Below are positions 1 through 12,718 of a DNA stretch of 64,000 nucleotides, piece by piece (position 1 is the stretch's first letter; each line of letters begins with the position of its first letter). The stretch spans positions 1-64,000 of the forward strand of contig NZ_BBLV01000010.1 of NCBI RefSeq assembly GCF_000971115.1, given 5' to 3'. Both the position numbers and the translations under genes were made by a program. Under the pieces are notes generated by a model. That model did not search any database, had not been told where the DNA came from, and worked only from the letters and a program-made list of their open reading frames with translations. Source of the DNA: Demequina gelatinilytica. GTDB taxonomy: Bacteria; Actinomycetota; Actinomycetes; Actinomycetales; Demequinaceae.

Positions 1-641
1 CTCCCGCGGCGGTCGCGCCGGCTGCTGCGCCCATCGCCGCGCCCGCCGCCCCGCCCGCACCCGCGGGACCCCCGGCACCTGCGGCTGCAGCGCCCGCACC
101 CGCGTCGGTCGTGCCGGCTGTCGCATCGTCCATGCCGCCGCCCGCGCCGGCGCAGGCGGCCCCCGCCTCGACCCTGTGGTCGGGTCCCATCCCGGTCGCC
201 GCGCCTGCCGACGCGGCCCCCGAGACCGACGACGACTACGACGACGCCACCATCATGTCGCCGGTCGACGACGACGCGACCGTCCTGTCGTCGCGTCGCG
301 CCGCCACGCGGTGGGTGCTCGCGACGCTCGACGGCGCCACGTACGAGCTCCCCGCGCAGGGCGCGGTCGAGATCGGGCGCGCGAGCCGCGGACGTGTCGA
401 CGCTCCTGGGCGTCTCTTCATCACGGATCCCACGCGCACCATGTCGAAGAGCCACGTGCGCCTGAGGCGCGAGGGCGACGACTGGTTCGTCACCGACCTC
501 CAGTCGACCAACGGCACGGCGAAGCGCCCCTCCGAGGGCATGCGGACCGTCCTTGCTCCCGGTGAGGAGGTCCCGGTCGACGGCGTGCTCGAGCTGGGCG
601 ACCTCGAGGTCCGGGTGCGCCGGGCCGACGAGGAGGGCTGA
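1..641 (+). CDS. FHA-domain protein, 5'-truncated by window edge
   Basis: The frame is open from base 3, so the true start lies upstream. The visible N-terminal part is a Pro/Ala-rich linker, followed by an acidic stretch with DDYDDATIMS and DDDATVLS, then a forkhead-associated domain: VEIGR, the SKSHVRLRR core and the LQSTNGT loop that in this family contacts phosphothreonine. FHA proteins bind phosphopeptides made by Ser/Thr kinases. The DDAT motifs resemble those repeated in the next gene and may be kinase or FHA targets (inference). The stop is 4 bases before the PP2C start, so the two are probably co-transcribed in a Ser/Thr phosphorylation locus. The partner kinase is not in the window. 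Confidence 0.85.
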   Translation, partial: PAAVAPAAAPIAAPAAPPAPAGPPAPAAAAPAPASVVPAVASSMPPPAPAQAAPASTLWSGPIPVAAPADAAPETDDDYDDATIMSPVDDDATVLSSRRAATRWVLATLDGATYELPAQGAVEIGRASRGRVDAPGRLFITDPTRTMSKSHVRLRREGDDWFVTDLQSTNGTAKRPSEGMRTVLAPGEEVPVDGVLELGDLEVRVRRADEEG

Positions 642-645
642 GCCG

Positions 646-2004
646 GTGACCTCGCTGGGCGTGCGTGGCGCCGGTGCGACCGCGACCGGTCGCAGGCGCG
701 CGAACGAGGACAGCCTGCTTGCCGAGGCCCCGGCGTTCATCGTCGCCGACGGGATGGGCGGCCACGCCGCGGGCGCCGAGGCGAGCCTGGCGGTGGTCGA
801 GGCGTTCCGTCCGCTCGCGGGCCGTGACGATGTCGAGCCGGCCGAGGCCGCCGCCTGCGTGGAGCGCGCGCGCGAGGCCGTGAGCCGCGTCGCCGCGGTC
901 CACGGCGCCCAGTCGGGCTCGACCGTGACGGGTGCCGTCGGCGTGACGCTCGCGGGCGTGCCGTGGTGGCTGGTGCTCAACGTGGGCGACTCGCGGGTGT
1001 ACTCGTACGGTGCCGGCGTGCTCGAGCAGATCACGCGCGACCACTCAAGGGTGCAGGAGCTGGTGGATGCCGGGCACCTGTCGCCGGAGGAGGCCGAGCG
1101 GCACCCCGAGCGCAACGTCGTGACGCGCGCGATCGGCGACGGCGGCACCGGTGTCGACGTGTGGCTGGTCCCGCGACGCCGGGGACGCGCGCTGGTGGCG
1201 GTATCCGATGGGCTCGTCAAGGCCGTGTCGGATGCCCGGATCGGGCAGCTCCTCGCGCTCGGCGGCGAACCCGGAGCGCTTGCGCAGGGGCTCGTCGACG
1301 CGGCCGTGGCCGCGGGCGCGCGCGACAACGTCACCGTGGTGGTCGCCGGCTCCGACGCGCCCGAGACGCCCGCCGGAGCGGAGACCTACGGCTGGCCGTT
1401 GTGGACGGGCGCCGTGACGGACGATGCGCTGGCGGCCGCGGCCGCGGCATCGAAGCCCGAGGCCGCCCAGGCGCCGGCGGCGCCCGCCGGTCCGGGCGAG
1501 CCCCCGGGCACGGAGCCCGAATCGGAACCGGACGACGCGACCGTGGTGTCCGCGCGCCTGCGAGGCGAGCCGGAACCGGACGACGCGACCGTGGTCTCGG
1601 CGCGCCTGCGAGGCGAGCCGGAACCGGACGACGCGACCGTGGTCTCGGCGCGCCTGCGAGGCGAGCCGGACATGGAGCCGGACGATGCGACCGTGGTCTC
1701 GGCGCGGCTGCGAGGCGAGCCCGTGCCGACCGCGGCGCCGCCTGCATCGTCCGCTTCCGCGGCCGCCCCGCAGCCGCACGTCGCGATCCTCGAGAGGGAG
1801 GCTCCCGAGCGCATCACGGCCGAGCTCGTCCATGTGGTCGCGCCGCTGTCGGTCGCGCCGCTGCTCGAGCCGTCCGAGCGCGAGCGTCGCGTGCGCGCCA
1901 AGGCGCGCCGCGCCCGCGCGACCTGGGTCGGGGTGATCGCGGGCACGCTGCTGGCGATGGCCGGGCTGGCCGCGCTCGAGGTGTGGCTGATCAGCGCGCT
2001 CTGA
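646..2004 (+). CDS. PP2C-family Ser/Thr phosphatase with C-terminal membrane anchor
   Basis: A 452-aa protein starting at GTG 646; a purine-rich RBS overlaps the end of the FHA gene. The PP2C catalytic domain covers about residues 1-240, with the metal-binding NEDS and ADGMGGH motifs, DHS, SDGL and the RDNVTVVV end motif. Then comes a Pro/Ala linker with four near-identical EPDDATVVSARLRGEP repeats (about residues 294-359) and one hydrophobic C-terminal segment, predicted to anchor the protein with its catalytic domain in the cytoplasm. It should reverse Ser/Thr kinase phosphorylation. The repeats probably act as phosphothreonine docking or substrate sites for FHA partners (inference). Three GGACGATGC copies lie in the linker. 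Confidence 0.85.
   Translation: MTSLGVRGAGATATGRRRANEDSLLAEAPAFIVADGMGGHAAGAEASLAVVEAFRPLAGRDDVEPAEAAACVERAREAVSRVAAVHGAQSGSTVTGAVGVTLAGVPWWLVLNVGDSRVYSYGAGVLEQITRDHSRVQELVDAGHLSPEEAERHPERNVVTRAIGDGGTGVDVWLVPRRRGRALVAVSDGLVKAVSDARIGQLLALGGEPGALAQGLVDAAVAAGARDNVTVVVAGSDAPETPAGAETYGWPLWTGAVTDDALAAAAAASKPEAAQAPAAPAGPGEPPGTEPESEPDDATVVSARLRGEPEPDDATVVSARLRGEPEPDDATVVSARLRGEPDMEPDDATVVSARLRGEPVPTAAPPASSASAAAPQPHVAILEREAPERITAELVHVVAPLSVAPLLEPSERERRVRAKARRARATWVGVIAGTLLAMAGLAALEVWLISAL
1525..1722 (+). repeat. Four 48-bp in-frame repeats in the phosphatase linker
   Basis: Units start at 1525, 1573, 1621 and 1675, with a 6-bp insertion before the last. Each encodes 16 residues containing DDATVVSARL. 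Units 2 and 3 are almost identical in DNA, which suggests recent duplication. Units 1-3 use GAC GAC for the Asp pair; unit 4 uses GAC GAT and so creates the dispersed motif at 1680. Confidence 0.9.
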
Positions 2005-3818: not shown

Positions 3819-5030
3819 CTACTGCGCGAGCAGCTTCTGGATGCGGGTCACGCCCTCGACCAGGTCCTCGTCGCCGAGCGCGTAGCTGAGGCGCAGGAAG
3901 CCCGACGGGCCGAACGCCTCGCCCGGCACCACGGCCACCTCGGCCTGCTCGAGGATCACGGTCGCGAGGTCCGCGGAGGACGTGATCTCCACGCCGCCGA
4001 CGGTGCGGCCGATGAGGCCCTCGACGCTCGGGTACGCGTAGAACGCGCCCTTGGGCGTCGGGCACACCACGCCGTCGATGGCGCGGAGCATCTCGACCAT
4101 GGTCCTGCGGCGGCGGTCGAACGCCTCGCGCATCTCGTGGACCGCCTCGAGGCCGCCCTCGAGCGCGGCGATCGCCGCGCGCTGCGCGACGTTCGACACG
4201 TTGGACGTGAGGTGGCTCTGGAAGTTGCTGGCGGCCTTGGTGACGTCCGCGGGGGAGACCATCCAGCCCACGCGCCATCCCGTCATGGCGTAGGTCTTGG
4301 CGACGCCGTTGACCACGATCGTCTGGTCGGCGAGCTCGGGGACCACGCGCAGGATCGGCGTGAAGACGGCGTCGTCGTAGACCAGGTGCTCGTAGATCTC
4401 GTCGGTGATGACCCAGATGCCGTGCTCGAGGGCCCATTCGCCGATCGCCTTGGTCTGCTCCTCGGTGTACACCGCGCCGGTCGGGTTCGACGGCGAGCAG
4501 AACAGGAGCGCCTTGGTCTGCTCCGTGCGCGCCGCCTCGAGCTGCTCGACGGTGACCAGGTAGCCCTGCTCCGCGCCCGCGAACACCTCGACGGGTGTGC
4601 CGCCGGCCAGCGAGATCGCCTCGGGGTAGGTGGTCCAGTACGGGGCGGGGAGCAGCACCTCGTCACCGGGGTCGACGATGCTCGCGAAGGCCTGGAACAC
4701 GGCCTGCTTGCCGCCGTTGGTGACGATGACGTTCGCCGGGTCGATCTCGTAGCCCGAGTCGCGCAGGGTCTTCGCCGCGATCGCCTTCTTCAGCTCGGGC
4801 AGACCCGTCGCGGGCGTGTAGCGGTGGTTGCGGGGGTCGGAGACCGCCGCGGCGGCGGCCTCGACGATGAAGTCCGGGGTGGGGAAGTCGGGCTCGCCGG
4901 CACCGAACCCGATGACGGGACGGCCGGCGGCCTTGAGGGCCTTCGCCTTGGAGTCGACGGCGAGGGTGGCGGACGGCGCGATGGCGCCGAGACGAGCGGA
5001 GACGCGGCGAGAGGGCTTCATGCTGGTCAT
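3819..5030 (-). CDS. aspC: Class I PLP aminotransferase, probable aspartate/prephenate aminotransferase
   Basis: A 403-aa fold-type I aminotransferase. Visible motifs are [12 protein letters not shown] near the N-terminus, the APYWTTYPE substrate and PLP region, the [10 protein letters not shown] loop, [11 protein letters not shown] carrying the PLP-nitrogen Asp and the Tyr, and the Schiff-base Lys in [13 protein letters not shown]. The sequence fits subgroup Ib aspartate or prephenate aminotransferases, which move amino groups between aspartate, glutamate and keto acids. An in-frame ATG at 5021 is an alternative start. The gene stands alone between the ABC exporter and tRNA-Trp and ends at the 34-bp palindrome. 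The aspC name is by family; the true substrate range is not determined. Confidence 0.85.
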
Positions 5031-5147
5031 TGTTCCACTACGTGGCGGTGCGCTCCGCCGCGGGGGGCGTCATCGAGGACCCGCCACCCGCGCTAGGCTG
5101 TCCGGGCGTCCAAGCGGGCGGCGACGATGCCGCTCACCAGACCCGGG

Positions 5148-5177
5148 TTCGACTTCTCACCGGGAACCGCGTAACAT
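5148..5177 (+). promoter_or_regulatory. Predicted promoter for tRNA-Trp-secE-nusG
   Basis: TTCGAC (5148-5153), an 18-base spacer and TAACAT (5172-5177) form a sigma-70-like promoter. Predicted transcription would start near 5184, about 90 bases before the tRNA. Predicted by eye only. Confidence 0.45.
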
Positions 5178-5273
5178 TGGACGTCGGCGATTGACTTTCG
5201 CCAGGATGGCTCGCGCCCTGAGGGCGGCCGGACTGGAGAGGGGACAGAGCCGCGGGGGCCTCCAGGCCCCCGA

Positions 5274-5346
5274 AGGGCAGTGGCGCAATTGGTAGCGCAC
5301 CGGTCTCCAAAACCGGCGGTTGTGGGTTCGAGTCCCGCCTGCCCTG
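5274..5346 (+). tRNA. trnW: tRNA-Trp (anticodon CCA)
   Basis: A 73-nt cloverleaf. The acceptor strands AGGGCAG (5274-5280) and CTGCCCT (5339-5345) pair perfectly, with discriminator G5346. The anticodon loop reads CTCCAAA with CCA as anticodon, and the T loop is GTTCGAGTC. The 3' CCA is not encoded. It sits 50 bases upstream of secE, the usual actinobacterial arrangement. Confidence 0.97.
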
Positions 5347-5396
5347 CGTCGCGCGGGGATCGCCCGCGTGAGCAATCCAGAGAGAAGGACTTTTCG

Positions 5397-5654
5397 GTGA
5401 GCGAATCTGCCGTGACGGATTCCGGAGAGAAGGACCCGCGGCACGAGACGCGCGAGGGTCTGGGCATCTTCGGACGCATCGCGCTGTTCGTGCGCCAGGT
5501 CATCTCGGAGCTTCGTCGTGTGGTCACCCCCACGCGCCAGGAGCTGGTCCGCTACATCTGGATCGTCCTCGGCTTCGTGGCCGTGATGATGGCCCTGGTG
5601 TTCGTGCTGGACGTCTCGTTCGGCTGGATCTCGCAGAAGGTGTTCGGCGGCTGA
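5397..5654 (+). CDS. secE: Preprotein translocase subunit SecE
   Basis: An 85-aa protein starting at GTG 5397, with AGAGAAGGA upstream. The frame is open further upstream through the tRNA, but that part is not coding. An acidic N-terminal tail precedes the conserved amphipathic region [22 protein letters not shown] and one transmembrane helix ([19 protein letters not shown]). SecE clamps SecY (32889-34187 here) in the SecYEG channel. It lies between tRNA-Trp and nusG in the standard secE-nusG-rplKA order. Confidence 0.95.
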
Positions 5655-5677
5655 GGCCGCCCAAAGGGGAGTATGTG

Positions 5678-6373
5678 ATGAGCGACGAGAACGTTGACGA
5701 GACCACGGTCGAGGGCATCGAGCCCGAGGCTGTCGTCGAGGCCGATGCTGCGCTGCCCGCGATCGACGAGGCGCCGGCGGACCCGGTGGCCGAGTTCAAG
5801 TCGCGCCTGCGCACCCTCGAGGGCGACTGGTTCGTCGTGCACAGCTACTCGGGCCACGAGAAGCGTGTGAAGCAGGCGATCGAGCACCGTATCGAGAGCC
5901 TTCACATGGAGGACTACATCTTCGAGGTGCAGGTCCCCATGGAGGAGGTCTTCGAGATCAAGGGCGGCCAGCGCAAGCAGGTCACCCGTGTCCGGATGCC
6001 CGGATACGTCCTGGTGCGCATGTACCTCACGGACGAGTCCTGGGGCGCCGTGCGCAACACCCCCGGTGTGACCGGCTTCGTCGGCCACGCCCACAACCCC
6101 GTCCCGCTCACCGTCGACGAGGTCTACTCGATGCTGGCGACCAAGGAGGTGGCCGAGGCGGCCGCCGCCGAGGACGCCACGGCACCGCAGACCCCCGTCG
6201 AGGTCGAGTTCGAGGTCGGCGAGTCGGTCACCGTCATCGACGGCCCGTTCGCGACCCTCCCGGGCACGATCTCTGAGATCTCCGTCGAGAGCCAGAAGCT
6301 CCACGTGCTCGTTTCCATCTTCGGCCGGGAGACCCCGGTCGAGCTGTCGTTCACGCAGGTCACCAAGATCTAA
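5678..6373 (+). CDS. nusG: Transcription termination/antitermination factor NusG
   Basis: A 231-aa protein. ATG 5678 is preferred over the adjacent in-frame GTG at 5675 because it is better placed after AAAGGGGA. An acidic N-terminal extension of about 45 residues, usual in Actinobacteria, precedes the NGN domain ([23 protein letters not shown], shown by its start [34 protein letters not shown]) and a C-terminal KOW domain ([18 protein letters not shown]). NusG binds the RNA polymerase clamp through NGN and Rho or ribosomal S10 through KOW; polymerase and S10 are both encoded in this window. Confidence 0.95.
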
Positions 6374-6433
6374 GGCGCGACAGCGCACCCGCGGCCGCCA
6401 AGCCGCACAGGCAACAAGATAAGGACCCTCAAC

Positions 6434-6868
6434 ATGGCACCCGCGAAGAAGAAGAAGGTCACTGGGCTGATCAAGCTTCAGATCCAGGCCGGCGCCGCCA
6501 ACCCTGCCCCGCCGGTCGGTCCGGCGCTCGGTCAGCACGGCGTCAACATCATGGAGTTCTGCAAGGCGTACAACGCCGCGACCGAGTCGCAGCGTGGCAA
6601 CGTGATCCCTGTCGAGATCACCGTCTACGAGGACCGGACGTTCACGTTCATCCTCAAGACCCCGCCGGCCGCAGAGCTCATCAAGAAGGCGGCTGGCGTC
6701 GCCAAGGGCTCGGGCACCCCGCACACGGTCAAGGTCGCGAACCTGACCGACGCGCAGGTGCGTGAGATCGCCGAGGCCAAGATGGCCGACCTCAACGCCA
6801 ACGACATCGACGCCGCTGCGAAGATCATCGCCGGCACCGCCCGCTCCATGGGCATCACGGTCTCCTAA
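6434..6868 (+). CDS. rplK: 50S ribosomal protein L11
   Basis: A 144-aa protein of full family length. The conserved N-terminal domain reads [20 protein letters not shown], with [12 protein letters not shown] next, and the C-terminal rRNA-binding domain has [19 protein letters not shown] and [12 protein letters not shown]11 binds the GTPase-associated region of 23S rRNA and is the site of thiopeptide action. It forms a rplK-rplA pair, 60 bases after nusG, with a weak AAGGA RBS. Confidence 0.97.
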
Positions 6869-6934
6869 GGACCTCACACCCCAGTGGGAGGGCCGCGCTG
6901 GCCCGCAACCACGAACTGCAAAGGAAGATCGCAG

Positions 6935-7633
6935 ATGACCAAGCGCTCCAAGGCCTACCGCGACGCAGCCCAGCTCGTCGACCGTAGCCAGCTCTACTCG
7001 CCGCTCGAGGCTCTCCGCCTCGCGCAGAAGACGGCCTCCAAGAAGACGGACTCGACCATCGACGTCGTCTTCAAGCTGGGCGTCGACCCCCGTCACGCGG
7101 ACCAGATGGTCCGTTCCACCGTCATCCTGCCGAACGGCACCGGCAAGACCGCCAGGGTCCTGGTCTTCGCCAACGGTGACAAGGCAGAGGCTGCCCGCGA
7201 GGCGGGCGCCGACATCGTCGGTGGCGACGAGCTCATCGAGGAGGTGGCCGCCGGCCGCCAGGACTTCGACGCCGTCGTGGCGACGCCCGACCTCATGGGC
7301 AAGGTCGGCCGCCTGGGCCGCGTGCTCGGCCCCCGTGGCCTCATGCCGAACCCCAAGACCGGCACCGTGACGATGGACGTGGTCAAGGCCGTGTCCGACA
7401 TCAAGGGTGGAAAGATCGAGTTCCGCGTCGACAAGCACGCCAACCTGCACACCGTGCTGGGCAAGGCGTCGTTCGGCGACCAGAAGCTGCTCGAGAACTT
7501 CCAGGCCGTGCTCGACGAGGTCCTCCGCGCCAAGCCGTCCGCCTCGAAGGGCCGTTACATCGTGAAGGCCGCGATCTCCGCGACGCAGGGCCCCGGCATC
7601 CCGCTGGACGCCCTCGCGAAGTCCGAGGCGTAA
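6935..7633 (+). CDS. rplA: 50S ribosomal protein L1
   Basis: A 232-aa protein. The frame is open back to 6884, but ATG 6935 follows AAAGGAAG and begins the conserved [11 protein letters not shown]. Family motifs are [14 protein letters not shown], the GGDELIEEV loop, [21 protein letters not shown] (partly quoted: [15 protein letters not shown]) and [18 protein letters not shown]1 forms the mobile stalk near the E-site and in many bacteria represses the rplKA mRNA. It is followed by two hairpins. Confidence 0.97.
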
Positions 7634-7645
7634 GCACCCACGTCC

Positions 7646-7681
7646 CGACGGCCCGGTCCCCGCGAGGGGGCCGGGCCGTCG
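7646..7681 (+). terminator. Hairpin terminator after rplA
   Basis: A 16-bp GC-rich stem (7646-7661 with 7666-7681, one G-T pair) closed by a GCGA tetraloop. It lies 13 bases after the rplA stop, without a T-tract. Confidence 0.7.
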
Positions 7682-7697
7682 GCGTCCCGGGAGCCTC

Positions 7698-7727
7698 CGC
7701 ATCGTCCATTTGCATCTGGACGATGCG
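7698..7727. repeat. Inverted pair of dispersed motifs upstream of rplJL
   Basis: An 11-bp inverted repeat (7698-7708 and 7717-7727) with an 8-base loop, each arm containing one motif copy. It overlaps the predicted rplJ promoter: the loop carries the -35 hexamer and the right arm fills the spacer. It may be a second terminator arm for rplKA, a protein-binding site, or neither. Confidence 0.8.
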
Positions 7728-7738
7728 TCGCATAAGAT
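7710..7738 (+). promoter_or_regulatory. Predicted rplJL promoter
   Basis: TTGCAT (7710-7715), a 17-base spacer and TAAGAT (7733-7738). Transcription would start near 7745, leaving a leader of about 220 bases before rplJ. Confidence 0.65.
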
Positions 7739-7744
7739 AGTTGG

Positions 7745-7966
7745 GCCCAAGACCGCCGGTCGTCGGCGCCGGGATCTCCCGGCACCGACCGAAGCTCCGT
7801 ACATGCGGGGACCAGCGCAGGTGAAGCTGAAAGCGCCGAGTGCGCGGACGTCTGGGCGACCTTCGGGTCGCCCTTTCTGTTTCGCGGACCAGGCCGCCCG
7901 GCCCCGCCTGCGCGGGGCCTTCTTCATGTCCGGGCCGGATGGCGGTCATCCGAAGGAAGGACAAAC
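7745..7966 (+). promoter_or_regulatory. Structured rplJL leader
   Basis: This non-coding 5' region contains several hairpins. GCGACC-TTCG-GGTCGC (about 7855-7870) is followed by CCTTTCTGTTT, and GGCCCCGC-CTGC-GCGGGGCC (about 7901-7920) is followed by TTCTTC; both look like attenuators. The part around 7790-7835 has GAAGCTCCG and GTGAAGCTGAAAGC, reminiscent of the L10(L12)4 binding kink-turn of known rplJ leaders. Feedback control by L10 is likely from the family; the exact fold is inferred. Confidence 0.55.
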
Positions 7967-8488
7967 ATGGCGACGCCAGACAAGGTGAACGCTGTTGCAG
8001 AGCTCGCGGACGACTTCCGCGACTCCGCGGCGGTGCTGATCACCGAGTACCGCGGCCTCTCCGTCCCGCAGCTTGCGAAGCTGCGCGGTGAGCTCCGTGG
8101 CGCCGCGACCTACAAGGTCGCGAAGAACACTCTGACGGCGCTCGCGGCCAAGGACGCCGGCATCGAGGGTCTTGACGACCTTCTCGTCGGCCCCACGGCC
8201 ATCGCGTTCGTCACCGGTGACCCGGTGGAGGCCGCGAAGGGTCTCAAGGCTTTTGCCAAGGAGAACGACAAGCTCGTCATCAAGGGCGGCGTTCTCGAGG
8301 GCAAGGTGATCTCCGCTGATGAGGTCAAGAAGCTGGCGGACCTCGAGTCCCGCGAGGTTCTGCTCGCCAAGGCAGCCGGCGCTATGAAGGCGTCGCTCTT
8401 TGGTGCTGCATACATGTTCCAGGCGCCGCTGGCTCAGGCCGCGCGTGCCGTCGACGCCCTGCGTGCGAAGCAGGAAGACGCAGCCTGA
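7967..8488 (+). CDS. rplJ: 50S ribosomal protein L10
   Basis: A 173-aa protein of normal length. ATG 7967 follows GAAGGAAGGA. The N-terminal domain contains the conserved [20 protein letters not shown] region and YKVAKNTL; the C-terminal helix binds L7/L12 dimers. L10 anchors the L12 stalk and probably feeds back on its own leader. rplL follows after 60 bases. Confidence 0.97.
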
Positions 8489-8548
8489 TCCAGGCTGCAC
8501 CCCACTACACACATCTGCTTCACGCAGGCAAGAGAGAAGGAAGTCATC

Positions 8549-8935
8549 ATGGCTAAGCTCACCACCGAGGAGCTCATCGAGCAGTTCAAGGAGCTCTCGC
8601 TCATCGAGCTCTCGGAGTTCGTGAAGGCGTTCGAGGAGACCTTCGAGGTCACCGCCGCCGCTCCGGTCGCCGTTGCCGCCGCCCCCGCCGCTGGCGGCGA
8701 GGCTGCCGCCGAGGTCGAGGAGAAGGACGAGTTCGACGTCATCCTCGCCGCCGTCGGCGACAAGAAGATCCAGGTCATCAAGGAGGTCCGTGCGCTGACC
8801 GGTCTCGGCCTGGGCGAGGCGAAGGCGCTCGTGGACGAGGCCCCCAAGGCCGTCCTCGAGGCCGCGAAGAAGGACGACGCTGAGAAGGCGAAGGCGCAGC
8901 TCGAGGCTGCCGGCGCCACCATCGAGCTCAAGTAA
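8549..8935 (+). CDS. rplL: 50S ribosomal protein L7/L12
   Basis: A 128-aa protein with the N-terminal dimerisation region ([20 protein letters not shown]), an Ala-rich hinge (about residues 35-55), and the globular C-terminal domain with [20 protein letters not shown], which contacts translation factors. A strong AGAGAAGGAAG RBS fits its need for four or more copies per ribosome. A good terminator follows. Confidence 0.97.
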
Positions 8936-8963
8936 GCTCGTTCGGCCTCAGCCGAAGCACTCG

Positions 8964-8997
8964 AACGGGGTCGGGTCCGCAAGGACCCGGCCCCGTT
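8964..8997 (+). terminator. rplJL terminator
   Basis: A 15-bp stem (8964-8978 with 8983-8997, one T-G pair), a GCAA tetraloop, and the T-containing tail TTCTGCTGT. It closes the rplJL unit 28 bases after the rplL stop. Confidence 0.85.
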
Positions 8998-9074
8998 CTG
9001 CTGTCCCCGTGCGACGATGCACGGGTTGCGTTTGGGGCACGATCGGCGTGTCGCCGACGAACTTGTGCCGCGGA

Positions 9075-9102
9075 CTGGACAATCTGCGCGCGCCGCGATA
9101 GT
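9075..9102 (+). promoter_or_regulatory. Possible rpoBC promoter
   Basis: CTGGAC (9075-9080), a 16-base spacer and GATAGT (9097-9102), about 140 bases before the rpoB start. The 309-base gap between rplL and rpoB otherwise holds the rplL terminator, one 8-base core of the dispersed motif (9013-9020), and nothing else I can recognise. Confidence 0.4.
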
Positions 9103-9244
9103 CTGACGACTTGCGCTGTCTATCGCCCTGCCCTCATATGCCTACCTGGCGTGCGTCCGCTTGTAGCGGGTTTCGCCCCAGGATCCGGTGGAGCCGCGGC
9201 TAGGCATCGTGGTCACGCACGATCATAAAGGGAAGGAACCCCCC

Positions 9245-12718
<3,474 letters not shown>

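Follow-up and report, generated by a model that had tools for sequence, protein, structure and literature searches.

A putative phosphothreonine motif common to the FHA and PP2C proteins of a PFNA-like operon in Demequina gelatinilytica

The adjacent FHA-domain and PP2C phosphatase genes of Demequina gelatinilytica both encode copies of an acidic-Thr motif, DDAT, and the comparison with related loci strongly supports the view that DDAT is a genuine short linear motif under selection in the two proteins. The sharing of the motif suggests a common phosphorylation switch. We give even chances to the more specific reading, in which DDAT would be a phosphothreonine code common to the reader (FHA) and the eraser (PP2C) of one kinase operon. 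The two genes stand at the beginning of the window, i.e. the whole 64,000-nucleotide stretch that was analysed, the first base of which is also base 1 of contig C23 in the 3.23-Mb genome.

The motif copies and their operon

The FHA protein consists of a Pro/Ala-rich linker followed by a C-terminal FHA domain (Table 1). Its frame carries DDYDDATIMSPVDDDATVLSSRR immediately ahead of the domain, and both of the FHA-protein motifs named in an earlier, sequence-only reading of this DNA, DDATIMS and DDDATVLS, were found there; the pair forms a 30-bp unit in 2.0 copies at 238-298 (Tandem Repeats Finder). The upstream copy, which has the longer linker, is present only in the window and L022/L076 among the 32 Demequinaceae loci described below, while the FHA protein of L102 has other upstream copies. 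The conserved Thr lies about 11 residues before the first FHA strand (strand E55 of a low-confidence model); the AlphaFold2 model of the FHA part, built on a 2-row alignment, was poor (mean pLDDT 49.5) and uninformative on docking. Since the domain keeps GR, SxxH and STNGT, it should bind phosphothreonine. These phosphothreonine-binding residues are kept in 32/32 loci, the FHA frames of which were selected by a pattern requiring SxxH and NGT.

The phosphatase has the PP2C catalytic motifs DGMGG, GDSR and DN and a tail of 226 residues; its score against the NCBIfam Stp1 family, 151.5 bits, lies under the cut-off of 230 for Stp1/PstP membership. The four repeats that had been claimed for it were confirmed, as EPDDATVVSARL occurs four times in the gene, and the EPDDATVVSARLRGEP units of the array start at residues 294, 310, 326 and 344 (nucleotides 1525, 1573, 1621 and 1675). 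A basic stretch precedes the predicted membrane helix, thus the array would face the cytoplasm.

Table 1. Features of the FHA-PP2C locus and of the operon genes on contig C27 (positions without a contig name are those of the window)
Feature	Position	Strand	Basis or remark
FHA-domain protein gene	3-641	+	Pfam FHA PF00498, E 2.4e-6, residues 123-172; 5' end cut by contig/window start
Motif copy 1, FHA protein, DDATIMS	240-260	+	Frame translation, degenerate DNA pattern
Motif copy 2, FHA protein, DDATVLS	270-290	+	Domain-proximal; counterpart in 32/32 loci
FHA domain core with GR, SxxH, STNGT	369-518	+	Pfam PF00498 match
PP2C Ser/Thr phosphatase gene, long C-terminal tail	646-2004	+	Pfam PP2C_2, PF13672
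Tandem array, 48-bp unit, 4.0 copies, four EPDDATVVSARLRGEP units	1523-1721	+	Tandem Repeats Finder
Predicted C-terminal membrane helix, after basic stretch	1924-1992	+	Hydropathy 1.99 over 19 residues
Transglutaminase, last gene before C27 ends	C27:100-3012	-	Transglut_core 1e-8
DUF58	C27:2613-4142	-	2.6e-11
MoxR ATPase	C27:4001-5161	-	AAA_3 2.6e-62
Giant Ig-like protein	C27, within 5022-11435	-	Big_9, Cadherin_5, Cadherin_4 at E 0.001
Ser/Thr kinase, operon 5' end	C27:11015-12124	-	Pkinase E 3e-38

The FHA and PP2C genes close a PFNA-like operon, all genes of which share one strand, with the order kinase, giant Ig-like protein, MoxR, DUF58, transglutaminase, FHA, PP2C. Since the genes preceding FHA run up to base 100 of C27, the FHA N-terminus is placed in the contig gap; C27 and C23 would be neighbours, with the gap inside the Pro-rich linker. 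In L076 a single contig holds a kinase gene and, about 11 kb away, the FHA and PP2C genes; the kinase has the same relative position as on C27. The kinase of the window genome has a hydrophobic stretch at its very end, followed by hardly any further residues, and the giant protein also matches tand_rpt_95 (tandem-95) with a score below the cut-off. In a comparison with anti-phage libraries, no matches were obtained for FHA, PP2C, transglutaminase and DUF58, and those of the kinase were generic.

The same genome has a paralogous second cluster on contig C18, with PDDRTQVSAR as FHA motif and EDTTPSSRRR in the PP2C tail, and a pstP-pknB-fhaA/fhaB-type cluster on contig C24. Its OdhI/GarA-like protein (L117, G000 C26:123300-124700) contains AERTMSLDS in the N-terminal part; GarA has ETTSVF at a comparable position.

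Conservation, rarity and selection

The Demequinaceae sample comprised 40 regions from 47 family genomes. L076-L106 (31 loci) and the window, all with FHA directly before PP2C, were counted as 32 loci; L107-L115 (9), which have another PP2C type, were excluded. The closest named relative at the locus is Demequina subtropica (L022), with 82% identity over PP2C, and genome G042 gave an 87% identity match. The regular expressions used for the relatives were drawn up after viewing the sequences, their acidic-Thr core having come from the sequence-only reading.

The FHA motif, [DE][DE]xTxxxx[RK] at most 80 residues from the SxxH serine, is present in 32/32 loci (shuffle control: mean 0.37 of 32, maximum 3), and its Thr sits 50-55 residues ahead of that serine in all of them. 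An acidic-Thr-Arg motif was found in 29 of the 32 PP2C tails (shuffle mean 2.0, maximum 6); the misses are L083 with DDLTSPSSR, L084 with DDSTTVER, and L089, where ADTTASERRR is encoded in another frame. A stricter pattern, with S, A or V at +3, gave 30 matches in 29 FHA ORFs, 18 in 29 PP2C ORFs and 0 in the 115 ORFs assigned to the kinase, the giant protein, DUF58 and MoxR in these clusters (124,979 aa, where some long ORFs of the giant class are possibly spurious). Across the genome, a degenerate DNA pattern encoding D-[DE]-A-T-[VIM]-x-S was matched 7 times, at the six FHA/PP2C sites and once in a long ORF that we interpret as coding for a phage tape-measure protein; the pattern in reverse, used as control, gave 0 matches. 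A chance origin of the motif was rejected on the basis of this rarity, the shuffle controls and the absence from the other cluster ORFs. Separately, the PP2C tail of L089 (G022 C1:1975100-1995000) is apparently frame-shifted, the other frame giving ADTTASERRRGDA and then a stop.

At the level of the order, a PP2C match at E 1e-34 was obtained in 196 of 347 genomes, and 40 of the listed PP2C places, from 11 families, were sampled. The motif [DE]x?TxPR is present in 24 of the 40 tails and in 9/11 families (shuffle mean 0.35, maximum 3); in 20/24 its start lies 7-19 residues away from the C-terminus. This strict form is missing from 16/40. A MoxR signature was found in 20/40 stretches, and cluster membership is supported for these 20. 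The FHA motif is patchy outside Demequinaceae: it occurs in 7/17 FHA loci of the linker type (shuffle mean 1.6, maximum 6) and in 0/7 of the zinc-ribbon type. Ahead of the FHA domain, two loci of family f4, perhaps Bifidobacterium-like and reached through PP2C, carry WDSTVLSS or WDGTVLSS; the end of their PP2C has IEDATLQ or MDSTMQS. The f4 loci reached through DUF58, and L216, contained no recognised FHA or PP2C.

The juxtamembrane part of the Demequinaceae kinases has RSTVPV or RSHVPV, with no acidic-Thr motif and no acidic run, thus in this family the motif does not extend to the kinase. The kinases of the C18-type clusters (L077, L079, L092-L095, L100, L104, L105) have RSHVPV or RSHVPI, where His replaces the Thr of RSTVPV, so a possible autophosphorylation site may have been lost or gained in one clade. 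In several order-level kinases (L153-L192) the kinase domain is followed by acidic-Thr-Arg stretches, e.g. DDATRVRS and EETRVRS, which resemble the FHA linker motif DLDRTRVS. A juxtamembrane kinase motif, acidic-Thr-[RV], is nevertheless not claimed, because the Demequinaceae kinases are without the acidic run.

As judged from the 32 loci, the four-copy array is a lineage-specific expansion. More than one PP2C motif copy together with a TM-like stretch was found only in the window and in L076 (D. subtropica), with four copies in each and units of 16-18 and 20 residues, respectively; the PP2C tail has 226 residues in the former, 228 in the latter and 42-64 in 30/32 loci. The repeat number in relatives, to which the sequence-only reading had pointed, is therefore four in these two and not multiple in the other 30.

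In the 24 DDATVV codons the window and D. subtropica differ by 17 synonymous and 0 non-synonymous changes, and in the 13-codon array cores (52 codons) by 25 and 2 (dN 0.018, dS 0.96), although, since the copies are homogenised within a species, the synonymous changes are non-independent and the number of independent ones is nearer 3-7 per unit. For the catalytic part, dN is 0.057 and dS 0.41; the linkers have dN about 0.09-0.10 and dS 0.43. The motif is thus under purifying selection. The array copies show 0-4 synonymous differences within a species and 3-7 between species; being alike within and different between species, their codons indicate turnover by homogenisation with the protein sequence held.

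Possible roles of the motif

Since the phosphothreonine-binding residues of the FHA domain are kept, a kinase is encoded in the operon and the sites of actinobacterial phosphatases offer a precedent, the motif is taken as a phosphothreonine site read by FHA. According to the available text of PMC6554272, the sites that depend on PstP in a mycobacterium tend to be phosphothreonines near acidic residues and protein termini, and an acidic-Thr stretch near the protein end fits such kinase/phosphatase sites. Recruitment of GarA by a phosphothreonine of PknG is also described (PMC8546545, excerpt). The earlier proposal of a kinase site and FHA ligand is therefore upheld as to the conserved motif, the binding-competent domain and the operon kinase; phosphorylation and binding themselves are what we infer.

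In the mechanism proposed, the membrane-anchored Ser/Thr kinase encoded on C27 would phosphorylate the motif Thr of both the FHA linker and the PP2C tail. Binding of the phosphorylated motifs by the FHA domain would be in trans, to a second FHA protein and to the PP2C tail. The phosphatase would thereby be brought to the phosphorylated FHA protein and the assembly would be switched off. Most relatives would work with one motif in each protein. In the window lineage, the four PP2C copies and the membrane anchor may form a multivalent FHA dock at the membrane with raised avidity. It had been suggested that the array recruits several FHA domains; since it is confined to 2/32 loci, multivalent recruitment is not the general function, and the single-copy motif is the conserved element.

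The most extended form of this model is tentative, and we hold it with more doubt than confidence. It supposes a module found throughout the order: a single kinase would write an identical phosphothreonine word on the FHA reader and on the tail of the PP2C eraser, and trans contacts would then lead to a self-limiting assembly recruiting its own phosphatase; the eraser of the window lineage would be a tail-anchored four-site scaffold which might seed phospho-dependent clusters at the membrane and connect them with the surface machinery of MoxR and transglutaminase.

The position of the motif N-terminal to the FHA domain, with fixed spacing in 32/32 loci, would also be expected of an OdhI/GarA-like switch in cis, where the FHA protein, once phosphorylated at its motif, would fold this segment back and so block its own FHA domain; the motif in the PP2C tail would then be no more than an additional substrate site, or would compete. 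GarA is, moreover, the only molecule among the PDB matches to the FHA domain (best E 0.003). However, a spacing of about 11 residues leaves little length to reach the binding loops, which lie on the far side of the FHA fold, and the upstream copy with the longer linker is confined to the window and L022/L076. In OdhI, Thr14/15 are 28-29 residues before the FHA domain (residues 43-143), as given in the excerpt of PMC2784874. The short linker thus favours binding in trans, though not decisively, and we consider the switch in cis unlikely.

A low probability is likewise assigned to the possibility that the motif is only a docking or substrate site shared by the targets of the operon kinase, so that the tail Thr residues regulate the phosphatase while the FHA domain reads MoxR, the kinase activation loop, the transglutaminase or the like. 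B. longum Pkb2 does phosphorylate the MoxR ATPase of the PFNA operon (PMC8430577, available part), and outside the window lineage the motif is not identical in FHA and PP2C (DDRTQVSAR vs EDTTPSARR). On the other hand, in the window lineage both proteins have DDAT with hydrophobic residues at +1/+2 and mostly Ser at +3, and the FHA domain always adjoins its motif. It is very unlikely, in our estimate, that the acidic-Thr stretch acts independently of phosphorylation, as an electrostatic or folding element of disordered tails, with the array as a neutral slipped-strand expansion. The concerted evolution of a 48-bp tandem repeat would agree with this, but Thr is present in all 32 FHA motifs (the pattern demands Thr, and every locus matches at the same spacing) and DDATVV was held free of non-synonymous change while the flanking linkers varied more freely. 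A neutral repeat is disfavoured by these codon changes, with the caveat that the array copies are non-independent.

If the phosphothreonine code proposed here holds, the motif in FHA and PP2C gives a testable wiring rule that names the exact Thr residues, and the array provides a natural valency experiment, with one site in the relatives and four in the window.

Comparison with known systems

PFNA-type clusters are treated, in the literature as excerpted, as a host-interaction operon of Bifidobacterium, with no molecular rationale given for its phosphatase and FHA genes, and the operon is stated to be exclusive to that genus (PMC10688814, available part). A PFNA-like operon with an Ig/cadherin-like giant protein was nevertheless observed here outside Bifidobacterium (G000 C27:100-12124 and window 1-2004), which extends the cluster type to other actinobacteria. 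The gene set is the same and the order nearly the same as the pkb2, fn3, aaa-atp, duf58, tgm, prpC, hypothetical, fha given in the excerpt of PMC8430577: the kinase gene is at the 5' end, and MoxR ATPase, DUF58 and transglutaminase follow in this order on C27 (minus strand). In contrast, FHA precedes PP2C in the window, and the same excerpt mentions no motif for Bifidobacterium prpC or fha. The giant protein matched only Big_9, Cadherin_5 and Cadherin_4 and no type III fibronectin domains, therefore the cluster is called PFNA-like and is not filed as a member. Among the literature titles and abstracts searched, none describes a motif common to FHA and PP2C proteins.

With OdhI/GarA the system shares a Thr N-terminal to a C-terminal FHA domain and the control by a kinase and a PP2C (PMC2784874, excerpt). 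It differs in the linker, which has about 10 residues in the window and 28 in OdhI; in the NCBIfam OdhI score, 18.8 against an equivalog cut-off of 200; and in the presence of the motif also in the phosphatase. Kinases, PP2C and FHA proteins are encoded together in the pstP-pknB-fhaA/fhaB cell-wall locus as well, but that is a different locus, and the NCBIfam FhaB score is 32.4 against a cut-off of 125. The FHA-phosphothreonine clustering of M. tuberculosis Rv1747, where a disordered linker joins two phosphothreonine-binding domains and reversible clusters form under kinase/phosphatase control (PMC11326607, available text), is a further system to which the window may be likened. Unlike Rv1747, which is one ABC transporter with two FHA domains, the window has the FHA domain and the array on separate proteins, and the array is carried by the phosphatase.
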